64,000 nt of DNA from the NCBI RefSeq assembly GCF_026151205.1, contig NC_087077.1, positions 15,164,983 through 15,228,982 on the forward strand. The letters run 5' to 3'. Under the pieces are notes generated by a model. It did not search any database. It worked only from the letters and a program-made list of their open reading frames with translations, and was not told the origin of the DNA. The position numbers were made by a program, and so were the translations under genes. This DNA is from Bolinopsis microptera (lineage: Eukaryota > Ctenophora > Tentaculata > Lobata > Bolinopsidae). This document shows positions 4,634 through 60,888 of this stretch, piece by piece; position 1 is the stretch's first letter; each line of letters opens with the position of its first letter.

Positions 4634-7564
4634 GATAATAAATAAAATTTCTGGTCTCAAAAATGTAATCCTAATTAAATAATTTACTGAATTGACTATT
4701 TGTGAGTATGTTGTGAACCCTTAAATCCAGGTAACTGTGACAAAAAAAAGTTGTCAACTAAAAGTAAATAGTAGAAATAACCTGAAAACCATGTGCTTTG
4801 CGAGGTGCGAGAGAAAAGAATTATACAGTATACACGGTACACCAATTTAGCAATTTCTCTGAAGCGAAAACGTTCGAAATTAATTTCTGTTAATATCGAA
4901 CGCGGAAATATGGCGGCCAAAGTATTACTATTGCATGAGTAATAAAATTCGGAGATACCAAATTGTCTCCTGGAAGTGTGCCAGAAACTGATCAAATTAA
5001 CTAACACATACAAATTACAATTAAATTCACAGTTCACACAGAAATATTTCAACAATGGCTATAATTCAACTTTATATATGAAATAAGACAGCTCCTAAAC
5101 CATTTAATTAGATTCAGTGCAATCAATAGACAATACTGAATACTGACAAATTACCTTTGAAATTTGAATAAAATGGTCTTATAATTTGCTATTTTACCGT
5201 ACATTATATAACCGTTATAGGGTTTAGCATCTTCCGAATCAACTGTCAAGTTCTTTAACTGATTTCTTCGAGAAAGCTGTTGCATTTTAAACAAAAGATT
5301 TGCATATATCGTCAGACGATAGGTTGCCCTAGGAGTGCACGATTGAAATATTTCTTTCTGGTATGACTTGTCATTCGAGGAATATATCAAATCAAGTACT
5401 AACGATGTTGATTTTTCCCAAATTTTCGCGTCATATTTTAGATCATAATATGTCAATTGTCAACAATGACTATGAAACAACAATATCTAGTGGTTAATTT
5501 TTCATACATTTACATAAAATGTTTAGTATTGAAATTAGTAATAGTATGTAATGAAATGACGACATGATAGTTGATATGGTATTTATAATTGCAACCTAAC
5601 TGCAAATCTAAGCAGTCCAAGAAATGAATGAATTGGCAGAAAATACTGAATATTTATATTATCACTCGCGCTGTAGTTCTACAGACTAAAAGTAAAACAG
5701 CGCGTATTTATTTATAATTATAGACACACGCGTGATTATTTTTCGCGTGATTATATGTTTTGACACTGACAGTACTTAAAACCAGGTGTGACAGCTGACA
5801 CTTTAACTTTAAGGAAGTTAAGACTAGCTTGTCATTACGCCGAATCTCTATCTTAATCTATGTTAATGAACATTATAGCCTGGGGTCCCCACGTAAGATT
5901 TGATGACTCTACAGACATAGCTGACAGAGTAGATAATTAATTTCTAGGTTAACTGACATAATGGTAAGATTTATAAACGAATTTTGGAAAGGTATCACAA
6001 ATTGACAATTGTATCTGATCAGTGGACCTTGAAATCGCATTATTGAAATCGCATACGGCCTTACGAGATATATTTATGTTCGACATAATTCTGGGAACCT
6101 AAATTGTAAATGATTTGGGAACGAAAATATGGGAATTTTTACCGAAAACCGCCACATTTCGTACCCCAAATTAAATCATGGTATTTGGGGATTTTTTTCA
6201 TCTCCTATTTTTTCATCTCCTATTTTACAAAAATGAAGCCCAATATTTGAGAAGATTAAGTAACAGTAATCTTCTATGATTAGCTATTCCATCTTGTAAA
6301 CAATTTCTCCGGAGCCACTATAAATCCCGAAATTTCACCGCCGTGACCCAATAAAGTAGTGACAGAGCTTGCTTATTTTTAATGGAACGTGTCCAAAATA
6401 ATTTTTAAATATAATATAAAAGTGAGGGTTTAAGTGATCAGACTATTATTGGAACCAAATGCTCAAAGGGAATAGCTTGACTCAAAAAGTGAGTCAACCA
6501 TTCCGACTGGCCTGTTCTGCAGCTACAGTTTGAGGTGCCTTTATCAAGTGATTGGTTAACTTTCACTAATTGGGTAGTAGTAGGAAAACAATTGTGTCGA
6601 TTACACCGGCCTAAACCATCTATAAGAGTATAAGGTGGACCAGTGCAAGTTATATTTATATTCAATAATGCAAATTTATTTACTTATTACGCTTGCAATG
6701 TAAGTGCACGTCACTGGTGTACTCACAAAATGTCAGTAGTTGTGATTGATAATGTTTTAACTTTTTAATAGACAGATTGTAAGTATAGATTATGAAGGAG
6801 GGTGACAGACCCATCACTTAGCTGATAGTGCCAAAAGCTCAACATTTTTAAAAACACTTGAAGAAATTGTCTATCGTTACAAATTTGTTTATGATAACAG
6901 AAATCCCCCTCCCCTTGGGAGGTAAGGGATTTATGAGCACTCTCAATTCTTTCTGATCCCTAATCTAAAATGTACGAGGGGTATTAAAGGTAGAGGCTAC
7001 TATAAATAAGTAGAGCAGGTTAATAGTTGAATAAATAAACATTTAAAATACCGAATTGGGAGGTCCTAATTAAGCTAGGATGATTTTACCTGGGGACATC
7101 AGGCTATTATATTTATGTTCATAATCATGAATAGAGATTCGGCGGAATGACAGGCTGAGCGCCGCCCAGTAAGGATGAATTACTTGATCGAGACATATGC
7201 TCCCTTTATTATGATAATAATATGATGATTTGGCAGCGAAATCCAAGTTAACTCTTTAAATTAATTAGTTAATTAAAGTCTATTGTTGTGCTACGACAGT
7301 TAACTTTATCGCTAATAATTGCTAGAGAATTTAATATAATTTAAATTTAATACAGTATGGCACATGCTTAGTCAGAAGTCTGTCACAATATTGTCTTATA
7401 TTGTTATACTGTTATACTTATAGCGAGTCCTAATTTTTACAATTAATTCCACGCTCCCAGACATTTATGTGACCCGGCTCCATATACAATTGAGTCTGCC
7501 AGTCTGTAGCTCATATATCGAGAGTTGAATTTGGGGTGCTTAACAAGGCTGGACTGTCAGTGTA
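4634..7564. other. Gene-free spacer with dispersed repeat fragments
   Basis: No recognisable gene. Minus-strand open frames at 4696-5055 and 5151-5456 lack motifs and do not exceed the length seen by chance elsewhere in this window. A dispersed repeat carrying gattcggcggaatgacaggc occurs at about 7088-7170, in reverse orientation at about 5835-5900, and again at 9.39 and 18.57 kb. Confidence 0.5.
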
Positions 7565-9247: not shown

Positions 9248-9985
9248 TCACTGGATGGTTACCGTAATGGGTGCCACATGCCTAGCATGAAATATTTACC
9301 TACTTACTTGCACTCGTGTAAGTCTGTAGATACATTAGTATCGGGCGTTGCCTGCTACAGGCTATCCCGAAACTAGAAATATGCTTTAATAAACGTTCGG
9401 TGGAATGACAGTCTGAGCGCCGCCCAGTAAATATTGTGCAGCAGGTTACCTAATACGTTTGTAAAATTAAACGCGTCGTGGGTAAGGCAATCCATCACCA
9501 TCCTTTCAAAATAAATCAATATCGGAATGGATGTGCGATTAAAAATGAATCCTTATACTCCCATTAATAATAATTGTGACATTACTGGTTATCTTGCTTT
9601 GCTCTTATGAGTGGGTCAATCATTTATTTTTAATTGTAGTTGACGAAATGAGAGTCTCCACTCATTGTGTTAAAACATAATTCTTTGTCGACGTTTCGGC
9701 TACATGCCTTTGTCATAAACAGGACGTACTGAAAACTTACATAGCTGCAAAGATACAATGTTAAAATAATCTATTAATACTACGAAATATAACAACAAAA
9801 AATAACATCTTGAAACCCAACAACGATCACAAATTTTTCCAAAAGAAACATAAAATATAACGGCTAAAAGAATCCACAACGCAACAAGCCGTGAACAATT
9901 CCTCATAGTACTACAAACATTTTACCAAGATAGCTCCTTCATATAACTGATTAATCAAAAATTATCTAGGTTAATAAGTTCAATA

Positions 9986-10369
9986 TTACATTAACTTCCA
10001 AGTATATTTTATCCAATCACCTTCATTTACGGACTCAGACAATTGAGTATTTATTTCTGGGTTTTCACGTTTTATTAGAACCGACTGCCACAATTGACGG
10101 TCCATATAGTCTTTACATCTTTTTCGAACTATAAACCGAAACGGTATGTTTGGCATTGAAATGTCTGCATGCTCCTCTAGGTAGTGCTTCCCCATGGCCG
10201 TAGATTTGTTGCCATCCCTTACTGATTTGTAGTGTTCCCAGGCTCTACTTCTTTTAAACCTACCAGTTTCCCCAATGTAGGACTTATTACATATTTGGCA
10301 TATTAATTGGTAGCAAATGTTTTTGGTCATGCAGGATTTATCGCACTGGTAGCATTTGCTGTCACTTTG
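9986..10369 (-). pseudogene. Penelope-like GIY-YIG endonuclease fragment (left arm)
   Basis: The frame encodes a Cys-rich linker (CYQCDKSC), then CQICNKSYIGETGR, a downstream R in FKRSR, EHYKSV, LEEH and a C-terminal KRENPEIN. The combination of CxxC, YIGETGR and EH is characteristic of the GIY-YIG endonuclease at the C-terminus of Penelope-like elements. The reverse transcriptase that should precede it is missing. The open frame appears to extend to 10450 only because it reads through the palindrome centre into antisense of the other arm. Confidence 0.85.
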
Positions 10370-10387
10370 TATCACAAGTGCAATAAA

Positions 10388-10771
10388 CAAAGTGACAGCA
10401 AATGCTACCAGTGCGATAAATCCTGCATGACCAAAAACATTTGCTACCAATTAATATGCCAAATATGTAATAAGTCCTACATTGGGGAAACTGGTAGGTT
10501 TAAAAGAAGTAGAGCCTGGGAACACTACAAATCAGTAAGGGATGGCAACAAATCTACGGCCATGGGGAAGCACTACCTAGAGGAGCATGCAGACATTTCA
10601 ATGCCAAACATACCGTTTCGGTTTATAGTTCGAAAAAGATGTAAAGACTATGTGGACCGTCAATTGTGGCAGTCGGTTCTAATAAAACGTGAAAACCCAG
10701 AAATAAATACTCAATTGTCTGAGTCCGTAAATGAAGGTGATTGGATAAAATATACTTGGAAGTTAATGTAA
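10388..10771 (+). pseudogene. Penelope-like GIY-YIG endonuclease fragment (right arm)
   Basis: This is a mirror copy of the left-arm fragment. It differs by at least one amino acid (V for M in CKDY-DRQLW). The frame is intact from the 5' truncation point to the TAA stop, so little decay has occurred since insertion. The first residues of the apparent longer open frame (from 10307) are antisense of the other arm and not part of the protein. Confidence 0.85.
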
Positions 10772-11259
10772 TATTGAACTTATTAACCTAGATAATTTTT
10801 GATTAATCAGTTTTATGAAGGAGCTATCTTGGTAAAATGTTTGTAGTACTATGAGGAATTGTTCACGGCTTGTTGCGTTGTGGATTCTTTTAGCCGTTAT
10901 ATTTTATGTTTCTTTTGGAAAAATTTGTGATCGTTGTTGGGTTTCAAGATGTTATTTTTTGTTGTTATATTTCGTAGTATTAATAGATTATTTTAACATT
11001 GTATCTTTGCAGCTATGTAAGTTTTCAGTACGTCCTGTTTATGACAAAGGCATGTAGCCGAAACGTCGACAAAGAATTATGTTTTAACACACTGAGTGGA
11101 GACTCTCATTTCGTCAACTACAATTAAAAATAAATTGTGACATTACTAATGATTACTAATCATTCACATTATATAGTCTTACTCTTAGACTTAACTATTT
11201 CCTCAGGCTCAAAATTGAGACAATATTGCTTTAACTAGCTCACACTTAGAATACGAGAC

Positions 11260-11999: not shown

Positions 12000-12399
12000 G
12001 ACACTATTTTCATGCTCAGGGCCCTTTTGTAAAATTAAAAATCCTTGCCGAGTGATTTAGTGGGATCATCAGTCATAAACGAAGTAACTACAAGTAGAGT
12101 CAAGCTTGTAATAAAGTAAAGATCGGAGCGGATGGTCTAGTCACGGGGTACGAACGGTCAAGCTGATCAGGCTTATACCAAGTAAATAAAGTCCAATTAA
12201 TCGTCAAATAATACTCACACTGAAACGCTATTCATGTGACTCTAACAATACGAATATTTGTAGGAGTATCCCTTTCTTTCATCGGCCTCATGAAGCCAGT
12301 TAGTGATCACAATCTGACTAGGATTAGTCCAGTGCTGTCCCCTAAATAATATTACACTTACAGGATTAGATATTAGCTTTCCGGAATAGACATACAATA
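12000..12399. other. Spacer without recognisable content
   Basis: No supportable gene or repeat. It ends in the TA (12398-12399) that bounds the next transposon. Confidence 0.4.
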
Positions 12400-13499
12400 G
12401 ATGTGGATACTGGCGGGGAGGTGATAATTGTTTGTTTACATTAATAGTGAGCACATGTTAAGCAGGCTGAGGAGGTGATAATTGTTTGTTTACATTTTAG
12501 GTCGAGCACATGTTAAGCAGGCTGAGGAGGTGATACATATTTTGTATTATAGAAGGTTTGTAACACTTGTAACGCCTTCTTGTTACCCCCCTTTGAGGAC
12601 CCCGAATTATTTTCTGAACGAAAGCTCAAAAATAACCGAGAAATCGACCTTCTTATTAACTCATTTTGATGACTGTTTCTGACCTAAAATTGCACGAAAA
12701 ATCGATTTAGCTAGGTTTCAGAACCTATAAACACTTCCTTATCCCTCAAAATTGATGTTTTATAGTTAATACGACCAACAAGCAACATATATTTTGATCC
12801 TTCGGTTGTACTCATGACCTAGACAGTTAAGCTGAACCCGACAGATTGAGGCAATCCTCACCTTAACTGATCAAACTGGTACTAACACAATTTTCAGATA
12901 TAAATGTTCTTTGCGATACGTTTATTGCAGCTTTGCAACTTGAGTGAAGACCAGAGTACGAAAACACACAGCAGGTAAGCAACTCACTTTTGGTGACTGT
13001 TCCTCACGAACATTCTGATCCTGTAACATATGAACAGGGAGATCGTCTCCTTAACAAATCGAACAGGTACTATCACAATTTCCAGAGCACAGCATGATAA
13101 CAAAGTCAAAAGAAACACAATGAAGGTAGGTTACCAACACCACAATATAACAATCATACTGACAACTGAATTAAATGTATTCTGACGACGGGCAGCCCTG
13201 ATGTGCTCCGTGGTCCTCAACGAGCGACCACTTGTAATAGAGGTGTTATGTCATGTGACACCGATCCGTCCAATCACAAACAGGAAAAGTGAGCAGATCG
13301 ATGTCGTGTGTTTACTTTCCTTATCTTTATTTGACCCTCTGTTCACATTGTTATCTCTACCACATCTTGACTCGGCAAGGTTCGCGTGCAATATCTGCAC
13401 CGCGGTAAACACGCCATGATTACGTCATGAACTTGAAATAGTGTGATTGTTGTACACTTATATAACCGTGCCCATCGCCCACGTACATTACAAACTGTT

Positions 13500-13530
13500 G
13501 GGGGGGGGGGGTGGGGGCGGGGGATGGGGT
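13500..13530. repeat. G-rich tract in the left arm, mirrored as a longer C tract at 14321-14356
   Basis: A G run interrupted by T, C and A in the left arm corresponds to a C tract in the right arm whose uninterrupted part is about twice as long. The arms are otherwise nearly identical, so the homopolymer has changed length in one of them or has been mis-assembled. Confidence 0.85.
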
Positions 13531-13861
13531 TTAAGATAAACAACCGATCTTGATAGTGTGTTCGTCGCTCCTCCAACTGACTGTGATGCTTATCGTCCAG
13601 TCAGGAACAGAATAATAACATAATTTTTTAGTTATAGTATGTCTCGGCTGAACTGCGGAGATAAGTACAGTTTGCTGTAATATGTACAGTTTGCTGTAAT
13701 ATGTGGTCGCGATTATCAACTCAGTGGAATTCCAAATGATGAACTGTGCTTTAAGTTTACACCAACTGGAACCAAAGGAATATACCCATGAGTGCTCCCT
13801 AACTTAACTTGGACGGTAAGTGTTTGACAATAAAAACTAGGACACGAATTCTCTGACAAGA

Positions 13862-13981
13862 AATGTTAGCAGGTTTAAATAAAATATACCTGCAATTAGC
13901 AGATTTAAATAAAATATACCTGCAATTAGCAGGTTTAAATAAAATATACCTGCAATTAGCAGGTTTAAATAAAATATACCT
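13862..13981. repeat. 30-bp minisatellite, four units
   Basis: Four almost identical units of agcaggtttaaataaaatat plus acctgcaatt lie inside the loop region of the foldback transposon. Each unit starts and ends with the inverted pair gcaggt/acctgc, so each can form a small hairpin. Confidence 0.95.
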
Positions 13982-14041
13982 CCAACTGACTGTGGTGCTT
14001 ATCGTCCAGTCAGGAACAGAATAATAACATAATTTTTTATT

Positions 14042-14296
14042 TATTCAAGTAGCCCTGGTCATTTTAAAAAAATCGTTGTCGACCTCCCTTAAAAAAACAG
14101 GGTTCAAATTGACCAGTTGGGCGCACACGAATGCGATGTCGCTCAGATAAGGCAACATTTTCGCCACAACTTTGTTTCCCAAAATCTTGTACCGCTTCAG
14201 ATAGCCAATAGAGCGTTCCACGTGGATGCGGGCGATGCTGACTTTCCTACTGGCTGCTACTTCTTCCGGCGTGAACTGAGTCCAACACACTATCAA
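14042..14296 (-). pseudogene. C-terminal stub of a DDE (DDE_Tnp_4, IS4EU/ISL2EU-like) transposase
   Basis: About 83 codons encode FTPEEVAASRKVSIARIHVE followed by RSIGYLKRYKIL, then LPYLSDIAFVCAQLVNLNP and a stop. The ARIHVERxIGxLKxxxIL block and the following A-C-L-NLNP segment match the last catalytic-domain helix and C-terminus of DDE_Tnp_4 transposases. This block supplies the final Glu of the DDE triad (HVER). The N-terminal part is absent, and the stub abuts the inner end of the right terminal repeat. It identifies the parent superfamily of the foldback element. Confidence 0.8.
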
Positions 14297-15458
14297 GATC
14301 GGTTGTTTATCTTAAACCCCATCCCCCGCCCCCACCCCCCCCCCCCCCCCCCCCCCAACAGTTTGTAATGTACGTGGGCGATGGGCACGGTTATATAAGT
14401 GTACAACAATCACACTATTTCAAGTTCATGACGTAAACATGGCGTGTTTACCGCGGTGCAGATATTGCACGCGAACCTTGCCGAGTCAAGATGTGGTAGA
14501 GATAACAATGTGAACAGAGGGTCAAATAAAGATAAGGAAAGTAAACACACGATATCGATCCGCTCACTTTTCCTGTTTGTGATTGGACGGATCGGTGTCA
14601 CATGACATAACACCTCTATTACAAGTGGTCGCTCGTTGAGGACCACGGAGCACATCAGGGCTGCCCGTCGTCAGAATACATTTAATTCAGTTGTCAGTAT
14701 GATTGTTATATTGTGGTGTTGGTAACCTACCTTCATTGTGTTTCTTTTGACTTTGTTATCATGCTGTGCTCTGGAAATTGTGATAGTACCTGTTCGATTT
14801 GTTAAGGAGACGATCTCCCTGTTCATATGTTACAGGATCAGAATGTTCGTGAGGAACAGTCACCAAAAGTGAGTTGCTTACCTGCTGTGTGTTTTCGTAC
14901 TCTGGTCTTCACTCAAGTTGCAAAGCTGCAATAAACGTATCGCAAAGAACATTTATATCTGAAAATTGTGTTAGTACCAGTTTGATCAGTTAAGGTGAGG
15001 ATTGCCTCAATCTGTCGGGTTCAGCTTAACTGTCTAGGTCATGAGTAGAACCAAAGGATCAAAATATATGTTGCTTGTTGGTCGTATTAACTATAAAACA
15101 TCAATTTTGAGGGATAAGGAAGTGTTTATAGGTTCTGAAACCTAGCTAAATCGATTTTTCGTGCAATTTTAGGTCAGAAACAGTCATCAAAATGAGTTAA
15201 TAAGAAGGTCGATTTCTCGGTTATTTTTGAGCTTTCGTTCAGAAAATAATTCGGGGTCCTCAAAGGGGGGTAACAAGAAGGCGTTACAAGTGTTACAAAC
15301 CTTCTATAATACAAAATATGTATCACCTCCTCAGCCTGCTTAACATGTGCTCGACCTAAAATGTAAACAAACAATTATCACCTCCTCAGCCTGCTTAACA
15401 TGTGCTCACTATTAATGTAAACAAACAATTATCACCTCCCCGCCAGTATCCACATCTA

Positions 15459-16260
15459 TAGTTCAGAGAAATTTAACAGAAAAGCTCAACAGCAGTGTTT
15501 GAGGCATTGAAATTTGTGTCTTGGGAATCCGCTGAAGATTTGTGTCATACATTAAAAATGATTGAGCTAAAATCTTAAACCACTCATGAATCATGATATT
15601 CATTCTATCAATCTACGTCATAAGGTATCGAAATTTGTTTCTTAAGGTACACGGTCAACACGTACTCTAGTTCAACACGTACCAAAGTTTGGCAGGTAAG
15701 GGGTGATTTCTGGAGCTAACTTAAGTTGTCGAACTAGATCAGTGCGTTTCAAACTAAAGTACGTGAATAGTTTCTTGAGAAAATGTCTTAGATTTAAAAA
15801 AGTTTTGTGCTAAAGTGTGCTAAAAATGGTAAAAAGAACCGGTTCCGGTTACAAAATTGAAATCTGGTCCGGCTGAAAATCTAACCCGGTCACTGGTCAC
15901 AAGGGGCAAGCAAGTATTTCAGGGCTGAATGATCTTGCAGCTTTTGCAGCGTTAAGTAACAACAATATATTGCGTCACAAATATCATGACACCAGGGCCT
16001 ATCACGGTCATGTGATAAAAATATATATGTGTTACTTTAAGCGAGGGTACCAATATTATTGTGAGTGAGTGGATCTCCACTATTCACCGAGTACAATATA
16101 AACGAACAGCGATCATAGTTCGATCACAATGTGCGTGGCAGATTAACATAACACAGCTACATGAGAATTACTCCTGACAATCAATAACGATCATTGTTTC
16201 AACACGTTTTTTCAGGACTAATTTAAAAATTCATCAAGACTATAATTGTTGTCACAAAGG
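15459..16260. other. Spacer with one dispersed repeat
   Basis: No gene recognised. A segment with gcgagggtaccaatattatt at about 16040-16095 recurs with changes at about 18452-18520. Confidence 0.45.
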
Positions 16261-30730: not shown

Positions 30731-33700
30731 TCAAAAGAATCCTGCATGATGGTCTTTATTGGGAATTTTCTTAAACTTTCTGCGCTTCTCAGAGACTTGT
30801 TCTTGATGGGCTTGGAGCGTGGAGCTGAACTTGCTCACTATTAGTGTCATTGGTAGGGCGATGTAGATCATGCTAAGGAAGAGGATAATAGAGCCAACAG
30901 ATTGACCGAGAGGAGTTTTGGGATAGAGATCTCCGTAGCCGACTGTCGTCATGGTAACTGCCGCCCACCAGCACGCGTGTAAAATACTAAACAGGGATGT
31001 TTAGATAAGATCAATGTTGATGAGGGTTCAGATCACTAATACCAATTATATCAATTAAATAAGAAATCAATTGATGTTTTTCCTTTGACATTAAAAGATA
31101 TCGAATATTATCAAGGAAACACACAATTTGCACACCAACCTTTTGAAGTCTGATTCGGCACTTTCCTCAATATAAAACATTATGGTTCCGAAGATGAGGG
31201 TTCCCATGACCCAGGTAAGAAACAGCATCCCCAGCTCTGATAAACAGCTGCTCACCACCTATATTGGTGAGTCAAAATGTGGATTCAAATCTGCAATTTA
31301 TTGTTTCATGGAGGTATAGCAACTATGAGTGGGATACAAATCATGTATAAATGTATAAATGGTTCATCCAAATATGTCACATGGTGGTTTGAGTGTGGGG
31401 TCTGTAACTATGCTCATATAGTTTAATGATTTTATCTTCATACGGTTGTCTGATTTTTTCCTCAATATTGAAACTGTTGATGCAAACTTCATTCATGAAA
31501 TAAAAATCGAATGTAACCAGTAAAATGTACGGGTAGCTTTCAGAGGTCTTACGGAGAAAATATTACATTCTGTGATTGTATGTACAATGATAACGATGTG
31601 GCTGCATTGACAAAACTAATTAATAATTAACTAAATTAAATAAATACTAATAGATGCGGTTACCTCCATCATCAGCATCATCCTCGAAGAGTGGCGTATA
31701 AGTTTGAATAGCCTCGTTATCCTGAATAACCTTAATATTCTGAATGCTGCCAAGCCTGGGAAACAAATGTTTTTAAAATTTTAAGAGTTATATAACTTAT
31801 AAGCAATAGCTAGGTCTTGCCAATTCTATTATAATCTTCGCAACGGACAATATCCATGATTATTGGCCTAATTTGATTTCCAGCCAACAAATACAATTAT
31901 AAGCGATAAATCTTTGCGTTTCATAGGGTTTTATCGATTTAGCTGTTCTCAAAACCTCTGAAATGAACAGACAGAATATAGTATTAACTATTACCTGATG
32001 CACTCTCTCTTCCGACAATAAGTTCGACGTAAAATGGCACAATAGCGAGGAAATCAAACCAGTTAAGAACAACTTTTAGGAAATTCCCTAAACTCGGTGT
32101 GCTTATCTGAAATTAGTCATTTACTTTAATGCCGTAAACTAAAATCGTAATTCATATTGACACATTATCTACGTAGAAATTTTTAAAGATTACAACATGC
32201 TCAAATTATTAAATACGCATAATATCAAAACTGTTTAATATTGAAAAGACAGTTGATTTGATAGTTTCTTACAATTCTAAGAACCAAATCAAGTGTGAAG
32301 TAAGACACACAGACAGTGTCCACTATGAAAAAAGGTTTCGATGCTGGTATCGTTTCGGTACTTTGGAATACTCTCCCATATCAAGTTAATCTGCAGGATG
32401 ATTTTAATATTTACTGTAAAATGAATAAATTATCGTACGATTGATTAAGTTGTTGACACTGATAAATTATTCATGAATTCATGTTTTTTAAGACTTGTTT
32501 AATCCACACTATTTAACGATTTACCATGGCTACAAGTAATTAGGGCAATAAATAAAATTTACAGAAATTGAGAATTTCATCGTAAAGCCTTACCACGCTG
32601 ATAACGATAATGAGTATATTACTGTAAGCCCAAATTCGGGCTGGAATGGACGACTTTGGATACTCCACAAAACCCCATAAAGCGGACCTCCAGCGCTGAA
32701 ATCCAACCGACTGACTGCAGGAAATAGTTCGTTAAGAGTCTTCAGTGACGACAAGAATACTGCAAGAGTTGTACTATTTTTCAAAAGAATGGCCATGAAA
32801 TGATCAACATGCGTTGAAGGGGTTAGGTTGTAGATGTGCAAAACAGTTTAACTATACAACTAATTATGCAAAATATGCTCTGCGATGTTACTTTTATGTA
32901 ATCTTGTATTTCGAGAATTAAAGCTATTTCCCATGAAGGTACGGATATTTTTAATATCATCTCTCCCTGGTACGGATACCTGATAATAAGATAACAATAA
33001 GATGATACCTGATAAGCTGGCTATGAGTCATGTCCGGTTCCGGGCTCTCTCCTTGTGACTCACCACAAGTACCGTCGATCAGCTGGAAGAATTCTAGCTC
33101 TCTTTCGAAAACGATGTCGGGCAACCCCTCAGGTTGGTATATGTCCCCACCTAGGGCGATGTAGATCATGCTAAGGAAGAGGATAATCCCCACCTAAATA
33201 TATGGTTTCAACCGTCTAGTGTCCTTTGCGAAATCCTGTCACAAATGTATAGGAGGTGTCTAGACTTTATAGATCCACCTAGACGTGACAAGTCACAGGA
33301 CATTACGTTGTTCAGCTGCAAATTATGAAAAAAGGGAATGCATCGTTCGATATGGTTTCTACAATACCTCAAAACCTCAAGGTTTTAACAGTAAAAAGGG
33401 TTCTACCTGTTTGATAGTAATACAGAATAGAGTCAAAAGCAATCTGATTTCTGTTGAAGTAGTACTCGTCGCGGAAAATGTCGTAGTACTGTTTCCTCGC
33501 ATCGTGATTCCCGAGCAGGGTGTCTGGAAACTTGTTCAGATCCACCAGGGAGGTCTCGAATATTTTACCCGCTGAGGAAAGAATTTATGTGTTAATTACA
33601 CGACTGTTCATTATTTTGACGGATATTTTAGAATCTAGTGCACCTGCGATCTGATATTTTGAATATCGCCGTACGTGGTTCACATATCAGACTGAGACAG

Positions 33701-33889
33701 CGTGTTTTTTCAGATATTAAATAAGGAGAAAATAATAACGTAAAAGAAGGTGGCGATATATTAAATGTTAGTAAAAATTAGGTACTGACACACGTTAATG
33801 GTGATTCTGTCACTGCTTGGGTACACGATCTTCTCCCCGTTGTTTACTAGCATGAAGTTCTTCATTTGTCGGTCCACGGATCCAAGCAT
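30731..33889 (-). CDS. Shaker-type voltage-gated K+ channel subunit, nine exons
   Basis: This is a pore-forming, or possibly modifier, subunit of a plasma-membrane voltage-gated K+ channel. Exons, 5' to 3': 33889-33790, 33571-33407, 33150-33009, 32687-32594, 32390-32273, 32106-31995, 31755-31664, 31258-31140 and 30986-30731. Phases join throughout to give about 398 residues if one base is ignored in exon 5. Residues 1-120 form a Kv1-like T1 domain (ITINV, FPDTLLG, DEYYFNRN, ILYYYQTGG) without the Kv2-4 zinc-site Cys pair. S1 is near 150 and S2 is FFIVDTVCVSYF. S4 (249-264) has six charges at every third residue (R249, R252, R255, R258, K261, R264). The filter is TVGYGD (328-333). S6 reads LPMTLIVSKF, so the second proline of the usual PVP hinge is Thr. 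The tail after S6 is only about 30 residues. An in-frame TGA just upstream supports the ATG at 33889. The oddities are the A6 frameshift at 32327-32332 and a 43-bp insertion at the exon 3 acceptor. Confidence 0.92.
33144..33196 (-). repeat. Copied S6-exon fragment inserted at the exon 3 splice acceptor
   Basis: 36 bp at 33152-33187 are identical to 30854-30889 in exon 9 (coding IILFLSMIYIAL). They are bracketed by direct repeats of tccccaccta (33144-33153 and 33187-33196). On the gene strand this produces two acceptors reading tag|gtgggg. Only the inner one (exon starting 33150) keeps the frame. The outer one leads to TAG after seven codons in the required phase. Confidence 0.9.
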
Positions 33890-36002: not shown

Positions 36003-36160
36003 ATATTAGTGATACTGTTACCCTGGTGATGTTACCTAGGGTGATTTTTACCCTGGTGATTGTTACCCTGGTGATTGTTACCCTGGTGATTGTTACCCTG
36101 GTGATTGTTACCCTGGTGATGTTACCCTGGTGATTGTTACCCTGGTGATTGTTAGTAACC
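36003..36160. repeat. 15-bp minisatellite, unit gttaccctggtgatt
   Basis: About ten units, some 14 bp long. The core is shared with the 28-bp array at 37.0 kb. Confidence 0.93.
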
Positions 36161-47100: not shown

Positions 47101-48900
47101 ATCAAGCCTCGGATTTTGAAAACTTTAGTGGCAAATACTGACTATCTGTTTAGTCAGTACTAAGCTGATAATAAAACACAGTCGTCTTATAACCAATTAA
47201 CACGACAATTCAAACAAAGATTTGTGTGATAAAACAACTCCAGTGTTACTAGAATGATCAATAACCAAAAATAGATTAAGTGAAAGAGACAAATCTCCGT
47301 CAAAACCACCAATTCAGTCTCTCAGATCAATCCGCAATAAAGGCCATTGCAATAGACTCTGGTTAAAAATATACACATTCAGTATAAATGCGAATTGATT
47401 GATAATTGTCATTATACAATTGGAATTGTTTACAATTCTTTGTGTTTCTACCCGACATTAAATGGAGTACAATCAGGCATAAATTATACCTGAGTACCTT
47501 GATAGTTAAATTTACGCTTAAATTCAAAAGAAGGGTTGGAAACAATAAGCAGCTTAAATTATGAATGGCCCCAATTATGAGTGGTATGGGGACAAAATTC
47601 CCTTTAAAGTGCGTTATAAAACGCATAGAGTATGGGTCAGAAACTTTACTGCCGTCGGGCAACAAGGTTTGTCGACCTGAAAGATTTTACGGGGAACGAG
47701 TCAGTCCTTACTCTCGCCACGATTATAATACATCAAGAAAATAAAGGTTAGATGACTTAAAAAATAGGAAGCTTCAATAGATATTAACTTCGATAAGCAC
47801 GAAAAAGAGCCACCTCTAGTTTATTTATTGGCGCGAGATCACTAATTTAAACATTTCAACTTCAAGTCTAGAAAAGTATTTTATGCTTCTTCTTTTAGGA
47901 AATCAGGAATCGCAACGATCTTGGAATTTTCAATTCGCAGAATCATAATTAACCTAGTAAAAATTATTGATGACCCTTAGCTCTAAGGGATCGCCTGCAA
48001 TGAAATGATGAATAGGAAATGCGTGCCCATGGCAATTATATACATGGCGAAAGGGGGTGCCCGACAGTTGGGTTGGAGAGCTTCCACTCCATAAGGCAAG
48101 CTGTACAAGGCTTGCAATAAGGACAATGCTCCAACCGTGGAGTTGCAAGGAAATGGATTGCCAGATATTGTAGTATTGTAGTGTATTTCACTGTTAACAC
48201 AAAGGATTCCACCAGTCATGAGGCAGCGCACTCGCTTGTGCAGCTGTAACATCTTACTGTACTCGGTAGCCAATGAGAAATCGGAACTGATAATATGTAA
48301 TACGTCTGATGTCTTATTGAAGTATTGTTGGTAAACTCTAGAGAGTTAGAATTAACCCAAATATCAGGGACACGAATGACTACTCCAGGATTTAAGAAAC
48401 TAAACTTTCAACACTGAAAACATTCAGATTCTTGCCAAATATATTTCGATTGTAGTCATCTCCAGTTACAGTTGGTAAACTCTAAATTTTCACATTCACA
48501 AGATCCATGAGCTCTGGATTACAGAGGTAACATAAAAATGCGATACAAGTACGTGTTAACACTTTTTTACCTGTTGTGACTGTTGCCTTTTTATTAAATG
48601 CTTTTCAAACTTTACAGAGTACAGCAATTATAACGAAAAAAAATTCGAACCATTCCCCGTTTATATCCAAATTATCGATTGTTTTCCAAGTACGACTCAT
48701 AATGGTACTGATATATTTTATACAAAACGAGAGAGGGTGAAACGTGGCAAATGAAAAACTCATTCAAAATACTCCGCGGTAAATCGGGGTATTACTGTAG
48801 TACTATGTCTATACTGCTAGTACTACTACGTTGGAACTAAGTCCGACCTACTCCTATAATAACCCTCCCATATTATATCCCTGTCACACATATCAGCCCA
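38141..48900. other. Long gene-free region
   Basis: No recognisable gene or transposon. There is a perfect 26-bp palindrome at 41321-41346 (ttaggagttgtca and its mirror) next to a partial tandem copy of acagaaccaactgtt. A hairpin with 12-bp arms lies at 45561-45589 (tcaaagtcaaag). About 48000-48280 is less AT-rich than its surroundings and open on the minus strand (HNTTISGNPFPCNSTVG-like). It may be an exon, but nothing identifies it. Frames at 44928-45272, 46216-46509 and 47363-47665 have no motif. Confidence 0.45.
48773..48796. mobile_element. Solo terminal fragment of the 54.4 kb MITE family
   Basis: ccgcggtaaatcggggt plus attactg followed by TA matches the right end of the MITE at 54446-54641, except for a change near the tip. 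No partner end is nearby. Confidence 0.6.
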
Positions 48901-49019
48901 TCATGGGTTCGTAGTTCATCTTTAAAGTTTGTCCCAACTCCCTTCAGTAACATAAACAAATAGCTTTGTCTCGGTCAGCCTTGTTGTGCTCTATTACGAA
49001 GGTTCCCATAAGACTAAAT

Positions 49020-49147
49020 ATATTGTAGTATTGTAGTGTATTTCACTGTTAACACAAAGGATGGGACAAACTTTAAAGATGAACTACGAACCCATGTCTC
49101 GGTCAGCCTTGTTGTGCTCTATTACGAAGGTTCCCATAAGACTAAAT
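49020..49147. repeat. 128-bp insertion assembled from three nearby templates
   Basis: 49020-49062 copies 48165-48207 in direct orientation. 49063-49096 is the exact reverse complement of 48902-48935. 49095-49147 repeats 48967-49019, the sequence directly before the insertion. The three tracts abut or overlap by about 2 nt. Sequence after 49147 (cactggagag) would have joined position 49019 originally. Confidence 0.92.
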
Positions 49148-54445: not shown

Positions 54446-54641
54446 CAGTAAAACCCCGATTTACCGCGGAGTTTGGGGGAAAGGAAACATCCGCGGTGAA
54501 TCGGGGTTTTGTTTGTTTACATTATGCATGTTATCTATAATGCCCTATTTGGGGGAAATAAGATGGTCGCGGTAAATCGGGGTTTGCGGTAAATCGGGGT
54601 TTGCGGTAAATCGGGGTTTGCCGTAAATCGGGATTTTACTG
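54446..54641. mobile_element. MITE with Tc1/mariner-pogo-like ends, 196 bp
   Basis: Inverted ends starting CAGTAAAACCCCGATTTACC are bounded by TA (54444-54445 and 54642-54643). Three to four direct copies of the 18-bp unit cggtaaatcggggtttg plus one base have accumulated near the right end. There is no coding capacity. A TA target with a CAGTNAAAC-like end fits pogo/Tigger-type elements. Confidence 0.87.
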
Positions 54642-56104: not shown

Positions 56105-59100
56105 CTATAGGCCATTATCTATTTCATCTTTATATTTAGCAATCCGTATTGGCGGAATTTCTTTCGGCATAAACTGTTTACCATACTTAGTCATACTGCC
56201 GACAATCAATAGTCTATTCCCTCTAAAATGGGTCCTCAAAACCCCATTAAACATTCCTCGAACCTTGTCTACATTCCACAAATTAAGACACCCAGCAATA
56301 GCCAGTGCTTGCTTAGTTTCTCTGGAATCTCTCTGATAGTAGTAGAGAACTAGTAAGTCCTCTCCTTCAGTTATAAAATGTTGATCACAAGGATTTTCAG
56401 TGTGATCGACCGGTTTAGCCCGTGATATAAGGTCGGATAAAAGCTCACTGTAGGTTTTAGGACCTAGCTTATCTAAACCTTGCAGCTGATAATGCGAATC
56501 CTTTGCTAGCACATGTTCTCTAAAATAACCATTGAAGAACTGGTTGTAGACGTTCGCTCCAGTTTTACCAATGTGATAAGTTCTAGAAACATCCGGGTAG
56601 AGCGTATCTAGACCACGCCCTTTTAACACATCCCTCATGAATAGATCCCAGCTGTATCCTTGACAACATGCCGGCCAGGAAGGTTCAACGACTTCCAGCC
56701 AGAACTTCCTGGATAGTAACCAGCCAAGCCCAGGGAAGAAATCTGTGCGATAAATCATCGTGGAGTCCTTAGCGGAGTGTCCATAACCGTTATCATTCCA
56801 AGCACTTGCACTGAACAGAGTTTTATCTGAACGCAAAACTGGAACTAACTGGCTGAAATAATCGAAGAAGTCAGGACTAACGATCAGATCATCTTCCATG
56901 ATAAAAACAAACTCTTTATCAGGATGCATTGCCCAGAGGACGTCGAGTGAGCGCTTGTAGTTTGTAGCGATATGGTCAGCTTGATTGAATGTGTCTTCTT
57001 TGTGATTTTTAGAATCAGTTTTAGGGAACCTCACCAGTCTTATTCCAAACTGTCTGGCAACAGCGAACGTCTCCAGATCGTAACCATCCTGAAACACTAC
57101 CACGTTCTCAGCCACAAACCCGGGTGCTTTGAAGAAACCAGATAAAACTTGTCGGAGATAAGATCCCCTATCCCCGGCTATAATAGCGATAGGGAAGGTG
57201 CTAGTAACGAAGTGTCCCCCTGTGTTAACCACAGGGTCAGGTATTGCCCATGTCTTCTTACAAAACTCTCCGTAGTTATCATATGTAGCACAGAACTCTT
57301 TATGAGAGGCTGCCAGCACTTCATCATCATCTATCTTGTTGGGAATACACTGGGATATAGCAACAGGGTCAGGCCAGGAGGAAGTGTCAAGTGAAGACTT
57401 CATCGCCTCGTAGGGTGATATTGAGGTTATTCCAACCTGTCCAATAAAGACCCAGCTGTATCTCCAGCCTAGGTCGTAAATCAGGGTACTGCCGAGTTGC
57501 TCTATTGTTTGTTTAGCTTCGTTATTCAGTGCTGTACTCGCTTCGTCTTGTGCTACCATCACTACAAAACGGTCGTCGTTCAGATTCTTTAGGATATCCA
57601 CCATGTCCGTCCCTGAAATTTTTGTGAAATATTAGACAGTTCCGGCAAACATGGAAATCGACAGTTGATTTTTATAGGTACACTGTACAATCTGCACATT
57701 TCCCTTCCGGAACTATATGCAGTGTATAGTATACACGATACACGAAAATCGAAATACATTATGAAACACGCCTCATATGACACTTGGAACATAGTACATT
57801 ATTATTAGTAGTATATTATGGATTGTTATTGGCTGAATGTATTGACAATAAGGAACCTTCATTCCAACTGTTAATTCTAGAACGTTTCTAAGATTGCTTG
57901 ACATTGCTTTATATCAAGTTTCTTAGTCACGCCCACCTATAATGATAATGATAATGACAAAATAGCAGACTATACATATAATTATGATGGTTGTGTACTG
58001 ACACAGCCAAATAAACTGTGTATTGGTTAGTTACTGGGGGAATGATCACAGAGTATTGGAAATTAACCTGCTACACCGATTAAGTAACTTAAGGGGGCAT
58101 ACACCAAATCTGTCCAGACCAAATGACCTCATAGGCAGTTCAGTGACCTTCTAGCGCACCGTTTCCACACCAAAAAAAAATATTTTGAGGATACCCATTT
58201 TTGTAATCGAGCATTTCCTGGTTAGAGTGGAATTTTCGGAAAAACACAATTTGTTTCGTGGAGAGGCTATAAGTTAATCATTTCTTGCGGTATCGGGTTG
58301 AAATTTTGCTCGCCGTCTATTCACATCTATTTCAAGGTGTGTGTAAAATCTTGATATCGTATCTAAAAAGGCTGGTGTGTTATAAATTTTTAAAGTTAAC
58401 AAAAGTCAAAAAGTTGAAATTGTCCTTTTCAGACTTATTTTAACCAAAAAGTCAGTCAGGGAAGATCGGATTGATTTGATGGTTGACATAAACTTGTTCT
58501 CTGAATTCTGGCGCAGTTTTTGATGCCCTCTAAAATGTTTCTCCTCATTTGTGTTCAGATCTATTGGACTTCAAAGCCAAACAACAAATTTAGGCACATA
58601 TTTCATTTTAAATATTTACTGATTTTTCTAAAGTTTTGATAGGAATGTGCTAGTGACTTTGTGAAGGGTGCAAAATAACCGCAACTAGCACATTTATATA
58701 TGAGGTATGAACAACAAAACACCCTAAAATGCTTCCCTTTAAAGTTATGGGAGAAAATGTGATTTTTTGGCTTTGCAGATAAAAAATCACATTTTCTCCA
58801 ATAACTTCAAAGGGAAGCATTTTAGGGTGTTTTGTTGTTCATAACTCATATATAAATGTGCTAGTTGCAGTTATTTTGCACCCTTCCAAAAGTCACTAGC
58901 ACATTCCTATCAAAATTTTAGAAAAATTAGTAAATATTTAAAACGAAAAATGTGCCCAAATTTGTTGTTTGGCTTTGAAGTCTAATAGATCTGAACACAA
59001 ACGAGGAAAAACATTTTAGAGGGCATCAAAAACTGCGCCAGAATTCAGAGAACAAGTTTATGTCAACCATCAAATCAATCCGATCTTCCCTGACTGACTT

Positions 59101-60888
59101 TTTGGTTAAAATAAGTCTGAAAAGGACAATTTCAACTTTTTGACTTTTGTTAACTTTAAAAATTTATAACACACCAGCCTTTTTAGATACGATATCAAGA
59201 TTTTACACACACTTTGAAATAGATGTGAATAGACGGCGAGCAAAATTTCAACCCGATACCGCAAGAAATGATTAACTTATAGCCTCTCCACGAAACAAAT
59301 TGTGTTTTTCCGAAAATTCCACTCTAACCAGGAAATGCTCGATTACAAAAATGGGTATCCTCAAAATATTTTTTTTTGGTGTGGAAACGGTGCGCTAGAA
59401 GGTCACTGAACTGCCTATGAGGTCATTTGGTCTGGACGGCACAAACCACTGTTTTGGTGTATGCCCCCTTAAGTGGGGAGCCAATCTCTTCCGTTAGTGT
59501 AAGACTAATTGGCTGTGTATTACAAGGACTAATTATACAACATTTACTGATCTGACTGTCCTGTCTAGTGTATGTATAAATGTCTTGTGACTAACGGTTC
59601 AACTTAGGAGTGAGGAGAAGCTTCCTTCGTGTAGATTATACAATATGTACTGTACAAACATTGAAAATGACAAGATATTATTGGTATATATTCACGTCCT
59701 ACTGACATCCTAATATTATCTAGAAAGTTATAGAAAACTAAAAATAAAGTATAAATTCTAAAATACACTATGAACAAGGAATACAATGTATTCTTTCTTC
59801 TTAGTGTATTTTATAATTCAATACATACCAGGAGTACAGAAAAGCAGAACATAGAGCTTATCTATAGATAGATACTAAAATGTATTTAAAAACATGCCAT
59901 AAACTTTAGGCATACCTCTAAAAAAGTATAAATTCTAAAATACATACCAGGGTTCTGATAAGTGTCGAAGCTATGCACACTGCCAGCAGTACCACGCTCT
60001 GAGTTTATCACGACCAGGTTTATTCCTCTACCTGTCTTCCAAGCAGGCAGCACCTGATTCAGGGTGTGTTTTCAGGTGACATTTTATCAATGAAGTTGCT
60101 TTATGGAGTACAGAAAAGCAGAACTTTTCATTTAAATTTTAATGATCATAGAGCTTATACGTAATCTATACTAAAATCTATTTAAAACATGCCATAAACT
60201 GTAGGCATACCTCTTTTCCATTCAAGCAAACTTTAGCTTTCCTAGGACCAGACTCAGCGTAGATGTGAACATGATTGTCAGGGCACTGAACCAGAGTAGG
60301 GCAGAGATCTGTAATCACTACATCCCCCTCCACGTGAGTAGCTAGTTCCTCACTCAGTACAGGTGGACCTGCAGCTTCTTGTGCGCTGTTTACTTTACCT
60401 GCTTGCTGGTCAGCTTCATGTTGTGCTATGGGGTTCACATCAAATCCTAGATCTGAAGAGTAAGTTTACGTCAACTAAATTACACAATATGAAAATGCTA
60501 TCATATGAAAATGCTCTGTTTCAAAGATAATTTCACTGCTCCAAAAAAATTGAATTATTTATTTTAAGGGAACATATTTGCTTTTTAAGTTAAATATTCT
60601 TAGGAATAAGATGTTTTTGAATTTCTCTGAAAAGGAAAATCGTACTTGCACTGAGAATTCAAATTCTTTGAATAATTAAACTTTACCTATATGAGGCAGG
60701 TTCTCTTCCTGCTCGATGTAGTTGTTCTCATTGTAAATAGCAAGTATCATCTGAGCATTGATGTAACAGAGGGCGATGATGAGGAATATTGCTATGCGCT
60801 CTGTGGTAAGTGGGCCTTTCTTCCACGTTAGAAACCTCTCCAGGCGAGATTTAGGGCCATACAACCGCAGTCTACGAGCTTTTGTCAT
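56105..60888 (-). CDS. POMGNT1: POMGNT1-like protein O-mannose beta-1,2-N-acetylglucosaminyltransferase
   Basis: The family transfers GlcNAc from UDP-GlcNAc to O-linked mannose in the Golgi (alpha-dystroglycan pathway). Exons: 60888-60687, 60452-60211, 60053-59948 and 57612-56105. Phases join to about 685 residues (human protein about 660). Residues 1-31 are basic and cytoplasmic; about 32-52 are a signal-anchor helix (IAIFLIIALCYINAQMILAI); then a stem. An ILEI/FAM3-like domain (about 120-245) contains HVHIYAESG, TGRGINLVVINSERGTAG and SFDTYQNPG. The GT13 catalytic domain starts near FPIAIIAGDRGSYL (about 323). It has the metal-binding acidic motif MEDDL (EDD at 423-425), SASAWNDNGYGH, PGLGWLLSRKFW and PDVSRTYHIG. 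Conserved cysteines are present and no frame break is seen. Intron 3 (2.3 kb) is mostly a palindromic transposon. The start codon abuts a tandem array. The assignment to POMGNT1 rather than MGAT1 rests on the stem domain. Confidence 0.93.
58093..59468. mobile_element. TTAA-flanked palindromic transposon in intron 3 of the POMGNT1-like gene
   Basis: Inverted ends GGGGGCATACACCAAA are flanked by TTAA (58089-58092 and 59469-59472), the target of piggyBac-type and Kolobok-type elements. The two arms of about 680 bp are almost identical reverse complements around ggctttgcagat at about 58769-58781. The right arm has about 16 extra bases near its tip (ggcacaaaccactgtt). No coding sequence. Confidence 0.92.
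59825..60215. repeat. Local duplication around exons 2 and 3 of the POMGNT1-like gene
   Basis: A block with gagtacagaaaagcagaac, then catagagcttat, then gccataaact-taggcatacctc occurs at about 60103-60213, spanning the exon 2 donor. It recurs at about 59830-59926 in intron 3. The second copy carries a decoy donor, gag|gtatgcc. A 20-bp segment around the exon 3 donor (tataaattctaaaatacat) also recurs at about 59750. Confidence 0.8.

Follow-up and report, generated by a model that had tools for sequence, protein, structure and literature searches.

The neointrons of Daphnia carry direct repeats of 4-12 bp, which have been attributed to staggered breaks (PMC4202315), and the fill-in of 3' overhangs has been described as a source of small tandem duplications (PMC8355091). 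In rice, Vaughn and Bennetzen (2014), as summarized in a later review, reported insertions that combine duplications with patches, often taken from several sources (PMC7407515). The human templated sequence insertion polymorphisms (TSIPs) include a class 1, with a poly(A) and a preferred TTTT/A site, and a class 2, with no target-site duplication (PMC5110952). In Drosophila, novel introns were found whose splice sites are overlapped by direct repeats of 8 bp or more, and NMD was proposed to hide poorly spliced insertions (PMC2809761).

In the window, that is the whole stretch of 64,000 nucleotides of Bolinopsis microptera DNA analysed here (G000:C6:15164983-15228982), a short sequence from exon 9 of a voltage-gated potassium channel (Kv) gene appears to have been inserted at the intron 2/exon 3 boundary of the same gene. 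With the rice insertions, which the review attributes to paired nicks followed by end joining, this case shares a short insert, duplicated flanks and copied sequence; unlike them, it has a splice acceptor as its target (PMC7407515). The non-tandem class in that review has its sources within 200 bp, ectopic donors being listed apart, whereas the donor here is 2.3 kb away, a distance that may be counted against reading the insertion as a repair scar. As in the Daphnia neointrons, direct repeats are present between the intron end and the exon, but here the 3' end of an already existing intron would have been extended, and the insert has an exactly known source, in contrast to the neointrons as described in that study (PMC4202315). 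Like the human TSIPs, the insert is short and templated from elsewhere in the genome; unlike them, it shows the class 1 duplication but lacks the poly(A) (PMC5110952). As in the novel Drosophila introns, the repeat overlaps splice sites, and NMD could hide transcripts with a premature stop; the Kv case differs from them in that it comes without a demonstrated new intron (PMC2809761). Among the titles and abstracts listed by literature searches whose terms did not include the name of the locus, we found no report of this insertion locus.

The Kv gene spans roughly 33.9-30.7 kb of the window on the minus strand and has nine exons, whose junctions we set by eye from the reading frames and the GT/AG dinucleotides. 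Exon 1 (33790-33888, as used in our scripts) contains the putative 5' end and start codon. Exon 2 (33407-33571) belongs to the T1 domain and ends ACAG/gtagaa in phase 1, the slash marking the exon boundary here and below. Exon 3, counted from the inner of two acceptors (33009-33150), encodes the end of the T1 domain, GGDIYQPEGLPDIVFERELEFFQL... According to frames and translation, exons 4, 6, 7 and 8 correspond to S1 (32594-32714), S3 (31995-32106), S4 (31664-31755) and S5 (31140-31258), and exon 9 (30731-30986) encodes the TVGYGD filter, S6 and the C terminus up to the stop codon; exon 5 (32273-32390), with the S1-S2 linker and S2, contains a one-base frame shift. We searched Pfam with two parts of the protein and obtained BTB_2 (E 9.1e-19, exon 3 included) and Ion_trans (7.9e-35). 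In a PDB search, the best matches of the N-terminal part were the Kv1.2-Kv2.1 chimera and Kv1 entries (E 8.4e-30). With a T1 domain, a channel domain with TVGYGD and a best match to Kv1, the gene is of the Shaker type (Kv1). Its relatives in the genome are many: exon 9 gave 60 matches and the T1 exons gave 49, and these counts include exon pieces as well as the gene. Cnidarians, too, have many Kv genes (PMC9989356). We also observed two closely similar, adjoining Kv genes about 8 kb apart at G000:C8:11338237-11351400 (L050, L051), with a T1 fragment containing a stop beside them on the opposite strand.

The initial annotation had noticed that 36 bp identical to exon 9 lie at the exon 3 boundary within a tccccaccta direct repeat, and both observations hold. 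Indeed, positions 33152-33187 of the + strand are identical (36/36) to positions 30854-30889 in exon 9, which code for IILFLSMIYIAL of S6; the two segments have the same orientation and are 2,298 bp apart. The 10-bp repeat TCCCCACCTA is present at 33144-33153 and again at 33187-33196. It bounds a patch of 33 bp derived from exon 9 (33154-33186, minus strand), and the 36-bp identity includes 2 + 1 nt that are common to the flanking repeats; the junction overlaps between patch and donor, read by eye, are small (1 and 2 nt) and near chance level. In total, the insertion amounts to 43 bp. Read on the minus strand, the duplicated 10 bp hold TAG/GTGGGGA, so the acceptor of exon 3 is doubled, as had been proposed: the first copy provides the inner acceptor together with the first 7 nt of exon 3, the second copy provides the outer acceptor, and the junctions fall exactly at 33150/33151 and 33193/33194, as predicted.

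We used the segment 33100-33260 as a query against the 264.65 Mb genome (232 contigs). Among the best candidates scored, the query matched nothing but its own locus and the exon 9 segment, and none of these candidates was a second version of the insertion site on another contig. Across 20 simulated Markov sequences of 64 kb, the longest direct repeat reached only 15-17 bp, and the 36-bp match is therefore not due to chance. Random 33-bp segments drawn from the non-array sequence of the window had a 10-bp flanking direct repeat in 25 of 300,000 draws (2345 of 200,000 when tandem arrays were included). Since an exon 9-like pore/S6 match was present in all of the paralogue loci fetched (13/13), exon 9 was taken as the donor and not as the recipient.

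Three AGs were considered for exon 3, at 33150 (inner), 33170 (inside the patch) and 33193 (outer). When exon 2 is joined to exon base 33150 it reads YYYQTGGDIYQPEGLPDIVFERELEFFQL, with the same layout as in the paralogues. When it is joined to 33193 it reads YYYQTGGDYPLP and then a stop, and with the patch-internal AG it reads YYYQTA and then a stop, so that the T1 frame is kept by the inner acceptor only. The translation thus confirms the premature stop that had been expected from the outer acceptor. The accompanying proposal, that the inner acceptor rescues the frame, is right for T1, which stays open, but not for the full-length frame, which, as assembled, is broken by the shift in exon 5; a functional rescue via the inner acceptor may be possible. 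With a small local matrix built from 12 acceptors of the Kv gene and two paralogues, all placed by eye, we obtained scores of 6.05 for the outer, 5.36 for the inner and 0.25 for the middle site. The leave-one-out scores of the 12 training acceptors ranged from 1.08 to 11.92, and among 7,182 AGs scored in the window 4.3% were above the outer site and 6.1% above the inner one. As the scores of the outer and inner sites are alike, the sequence does not decide which acceptor is chosen. The first AG downstream of the branch point usually has an advantage as acceptor, and the outer AG, which is nearer to any upstream branch point, should compete well with the inner one.

The frame shift of exon 5 became visible in an alignment, made by eye, of this exon with the paralogue closest to the Kv gene (C4, L043): one frame is followed up to ...SIETFF and the next frame from FIVDTVCVSYF onwards. 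The change sits at a run of six T on the minus strand (+ strand 32328-32333). Because exon 5 is shifted, the channel is truncated in the assembly with either acceptor. The remaining exons are open, and T1, S4, the filter and S6 are recognisable. Shifts in homopolymers such as T runs are a frequent error of long reads, and this one may be either an assembly error or the mark of a dead gene.

Intron 2 itself does not appear to have been created by the insert. Without the insert, the intron body (213 bp, 33194-33406) gave no other match in a search of the genome. We looked for the end-of-T1 pattern, a search that misses diverged relatives, in 24 other loci: 23 of them are open across the position of intron 2, and one, the C12 paralogue (L034/L055), is interrupted there by an intron of identical phase. 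Intron 2 may be old, or it may have been gained separately in the Kv gene and in the C12 paralogue. From frame arithmetic, use of the inner acceptor would add the 43 bp of the insertion to intron 2. A decayed duplicate of exon 3 within intron 2 (AG/GTGG at 33278) was also considered and rejected, since its local alignment was matched by 257 of 500 shuffles.

In the C12 paralogue (L055, 3929-4012), at the position of intron 2 of the Kv gene, the end of exon 2 and the donor are tandemly duplicated with a period of 41 bp. In the closest paralogue, 33 bp with the end of exon 4 and the donor (L043, 5033-5065) are repeated 115 bp downstream in the intron (5148-5180), where the repeat adjoins TATATTAGT repeats. 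In another Kv paralogue, a tandem duplication with a period of 62 bp (L052, 5924-6054) extends up to the start of the exon 9 match. These doubled donors and this doubled acceptor region prompted us to ask whether splice sites are a hotspot for short duplications in the paralogue loci. For this test, 25 rows outside the given gene, in 12 stretches and 13 loci, were merged by hand into 17 duplications. Three of the 17 touched an exon edge where 2.70 were expected (P 0.52), in a rough test in which exon edges were tblastn edges with a tolerance of 25 nt; the hotspot was rejected.

A companion event is found at 48967-49147, about 16 kb away. The initial annotation had set it, as the 49 kb mosaic, beside the Kv insertion as two short templated insertions within 16 kb, and it proved to be real, with the same layout: a direct duplication of 53 bp (48967-49019 and 49095-49147) encloses two patches, one of 43 bp copied directly from 48165-48207 and one of 35 bp inverted from 48902-48936, and all of these matches are exact. 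We looked for the layout direct repeat, patch, direct repeat in 216 kb, made up of the window, 40 kb flanking it and 112 kb from the paralogue loci, and required exact matches within 10 kb to cover at least 80% of the patch. The scan returned 32 rows, of which 28 were judged on visual inspection to be tandem arrays or clusters of short repeats and were dropped (13 at 36016-36144, one at 13866, one at 54572, ten in L043 and three in L049). The four rows kept were 33144, 48967, L043:5139 and L043:3845, the two L043 rows being less clean; the 216 kb thus contain two clean cases, both in the window, and the 152 kb outside the window contain none. Five Markov controls gave 0 rows under the same criteria. 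A pair of these events at a distance of 16 kb deserves notice, although the number is small. Of two earlier scans, both set aside, one gave 1305 rows, which among the 80 inspected were mostly tandem arrays (0 in a reversed-sequence control), and the other gave 132 rows, many inside longer repeats, and missed the Kv insertion. An initial list held 362 exact matches, of which 175 passed the filters, and among these only the ones with unlike flanks were displayed. The window also contains three long inverted repeats with arms that are 98-100% complementary, at 9622-11135 (arms of 749 nt, spacer of 16 nt), 58112-59437 (657 nt, 12 nt) and 12394-15462 (1128 nt, 813 nt).

We consider that the insertion in the Kv gene is probably, at roughly 80%, a mutational scar left by repair with a templated patch, and not an element or a built-in switch. 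From its layout we infer that an insertion took place and that it proceeded as follows. A break or stalled synthesis would have occurred at the intron 2/exon 3 boundary, one end would have used the gene's own exon 9, at a distance of 2.3 kb, as template for 33 nt, and after rejoining 8-10 nt of the target would have remained on either side. Most simply, the starting point would be a staggered double-strand break, with ends that were filled in and joined through the short copied patch; a round trip of the replication fork may have led to the same product. As expected of a staggered break, the target is duplicated on both sides, by 10 bp, which is within the 4-12 bp range of Daphnia, and the insert can be traced to its source over 36 of 36 positions. 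The companion event of the same layout also speaks for this reading. Counted against it are, besides the distance of the donor, that no empty allele appeared among the candidates of the genome search, that the overlaps at the joins are near chance, and that 216 kb held just two clean cases of the layout.

Other origins seem less probable. The patch could have been templated by the gene's own RNA rather than by DNA, since it derives, with unchanged orientation, from one of the gene's own exons and RNA-guided repair of breaks has been reported in human and yeast cells (PMC11390984). However, the patch crosses no splice junction, so that nothing marks it as RNA, and of the two patches in the 49 kb event one is inverted, and we regard an RNA template as improbable. 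A chimeric assembly, or an artefact of the library or of sequencing, appears slightly less likely still, even if the homopolymer shift in the same gene is suspicious: a perfect 10-bp duplication that encloses a perfectly matching patch looks like a repair signature and would be atypical of assembly joins, the locus is inside a contig of 20.9 Mb with no second version of it in the results of the genome search, and a second event has the same layout. The 10-bp direct repeats are also what a small mobile element would leave as a target-site duplication, but 33 bp with neither terminal repeats nor an A-tail (by eye), returned from two places in 264.65 Mb of which one is exon 9, make such an element extremely improbable, and a transposable element was rejected for want of several dispersed copies. 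We likewise rejected a LINE-mediated templated insertion (class 1 TSIP), as there is no poly(A) and the repeat end is not TTTT/A (by eye), and a class 2 TSIP, as the 10-bp duplication is present.

A different question is what the insertion means for the gene. The Kv gene could be a copy that is dying or already dead, with both the insertion and the exon 5 shift as neutral decay, a reading that is compatible with an origin as a repair scar. It would fit the one-base shift at the T run relative to the C4 paralogue and an outer acceptor that scores as high as the inner one; but a single shift is weak evidence, a shift of this kind in a homopolymer is commonly an error of long reads, and the other exons are open with their domains recognisable, which leaves decay as a serious, though not the favoured, possibility. 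The doubled acceptor might instead act as a splicing switch, in which use of the outer site would yield a truncated, decaying mRNA and use of the inner site a channel, the insert tuning the channel dose. The scores of both sites fall inside the range of the training acceptors, and the outer and middle AGs run into stops, as such a switch would have it. As assembled, however, the gene is frame-shifted in exon 5, and a new insertion needs no function; a regulatory role is thus very unlikely.

We also considered a broader proposal, which at present is rather doubtful: an ongoing germline process could repair breaks with one or more patches of 30-45 bp from within a few kb, placed between duplicated target ends and possibly copied from RNA, and some of these patches would bring coding sequence into splice sites, thereby creating splice-site alternatives within one gene family. 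The templated repair scar in the Kv gene is most likely a further case of an already known kind of mutation, and it changes no known mechanism. If it turned out to be polymorphic or recent, it would be a repair scar, traceable in full, by which a splice acceptor was doubled with coding sequence from its own gene, and it would provide a test case for shifts of splice sites and for the rate of templated insertion in an animal genome.
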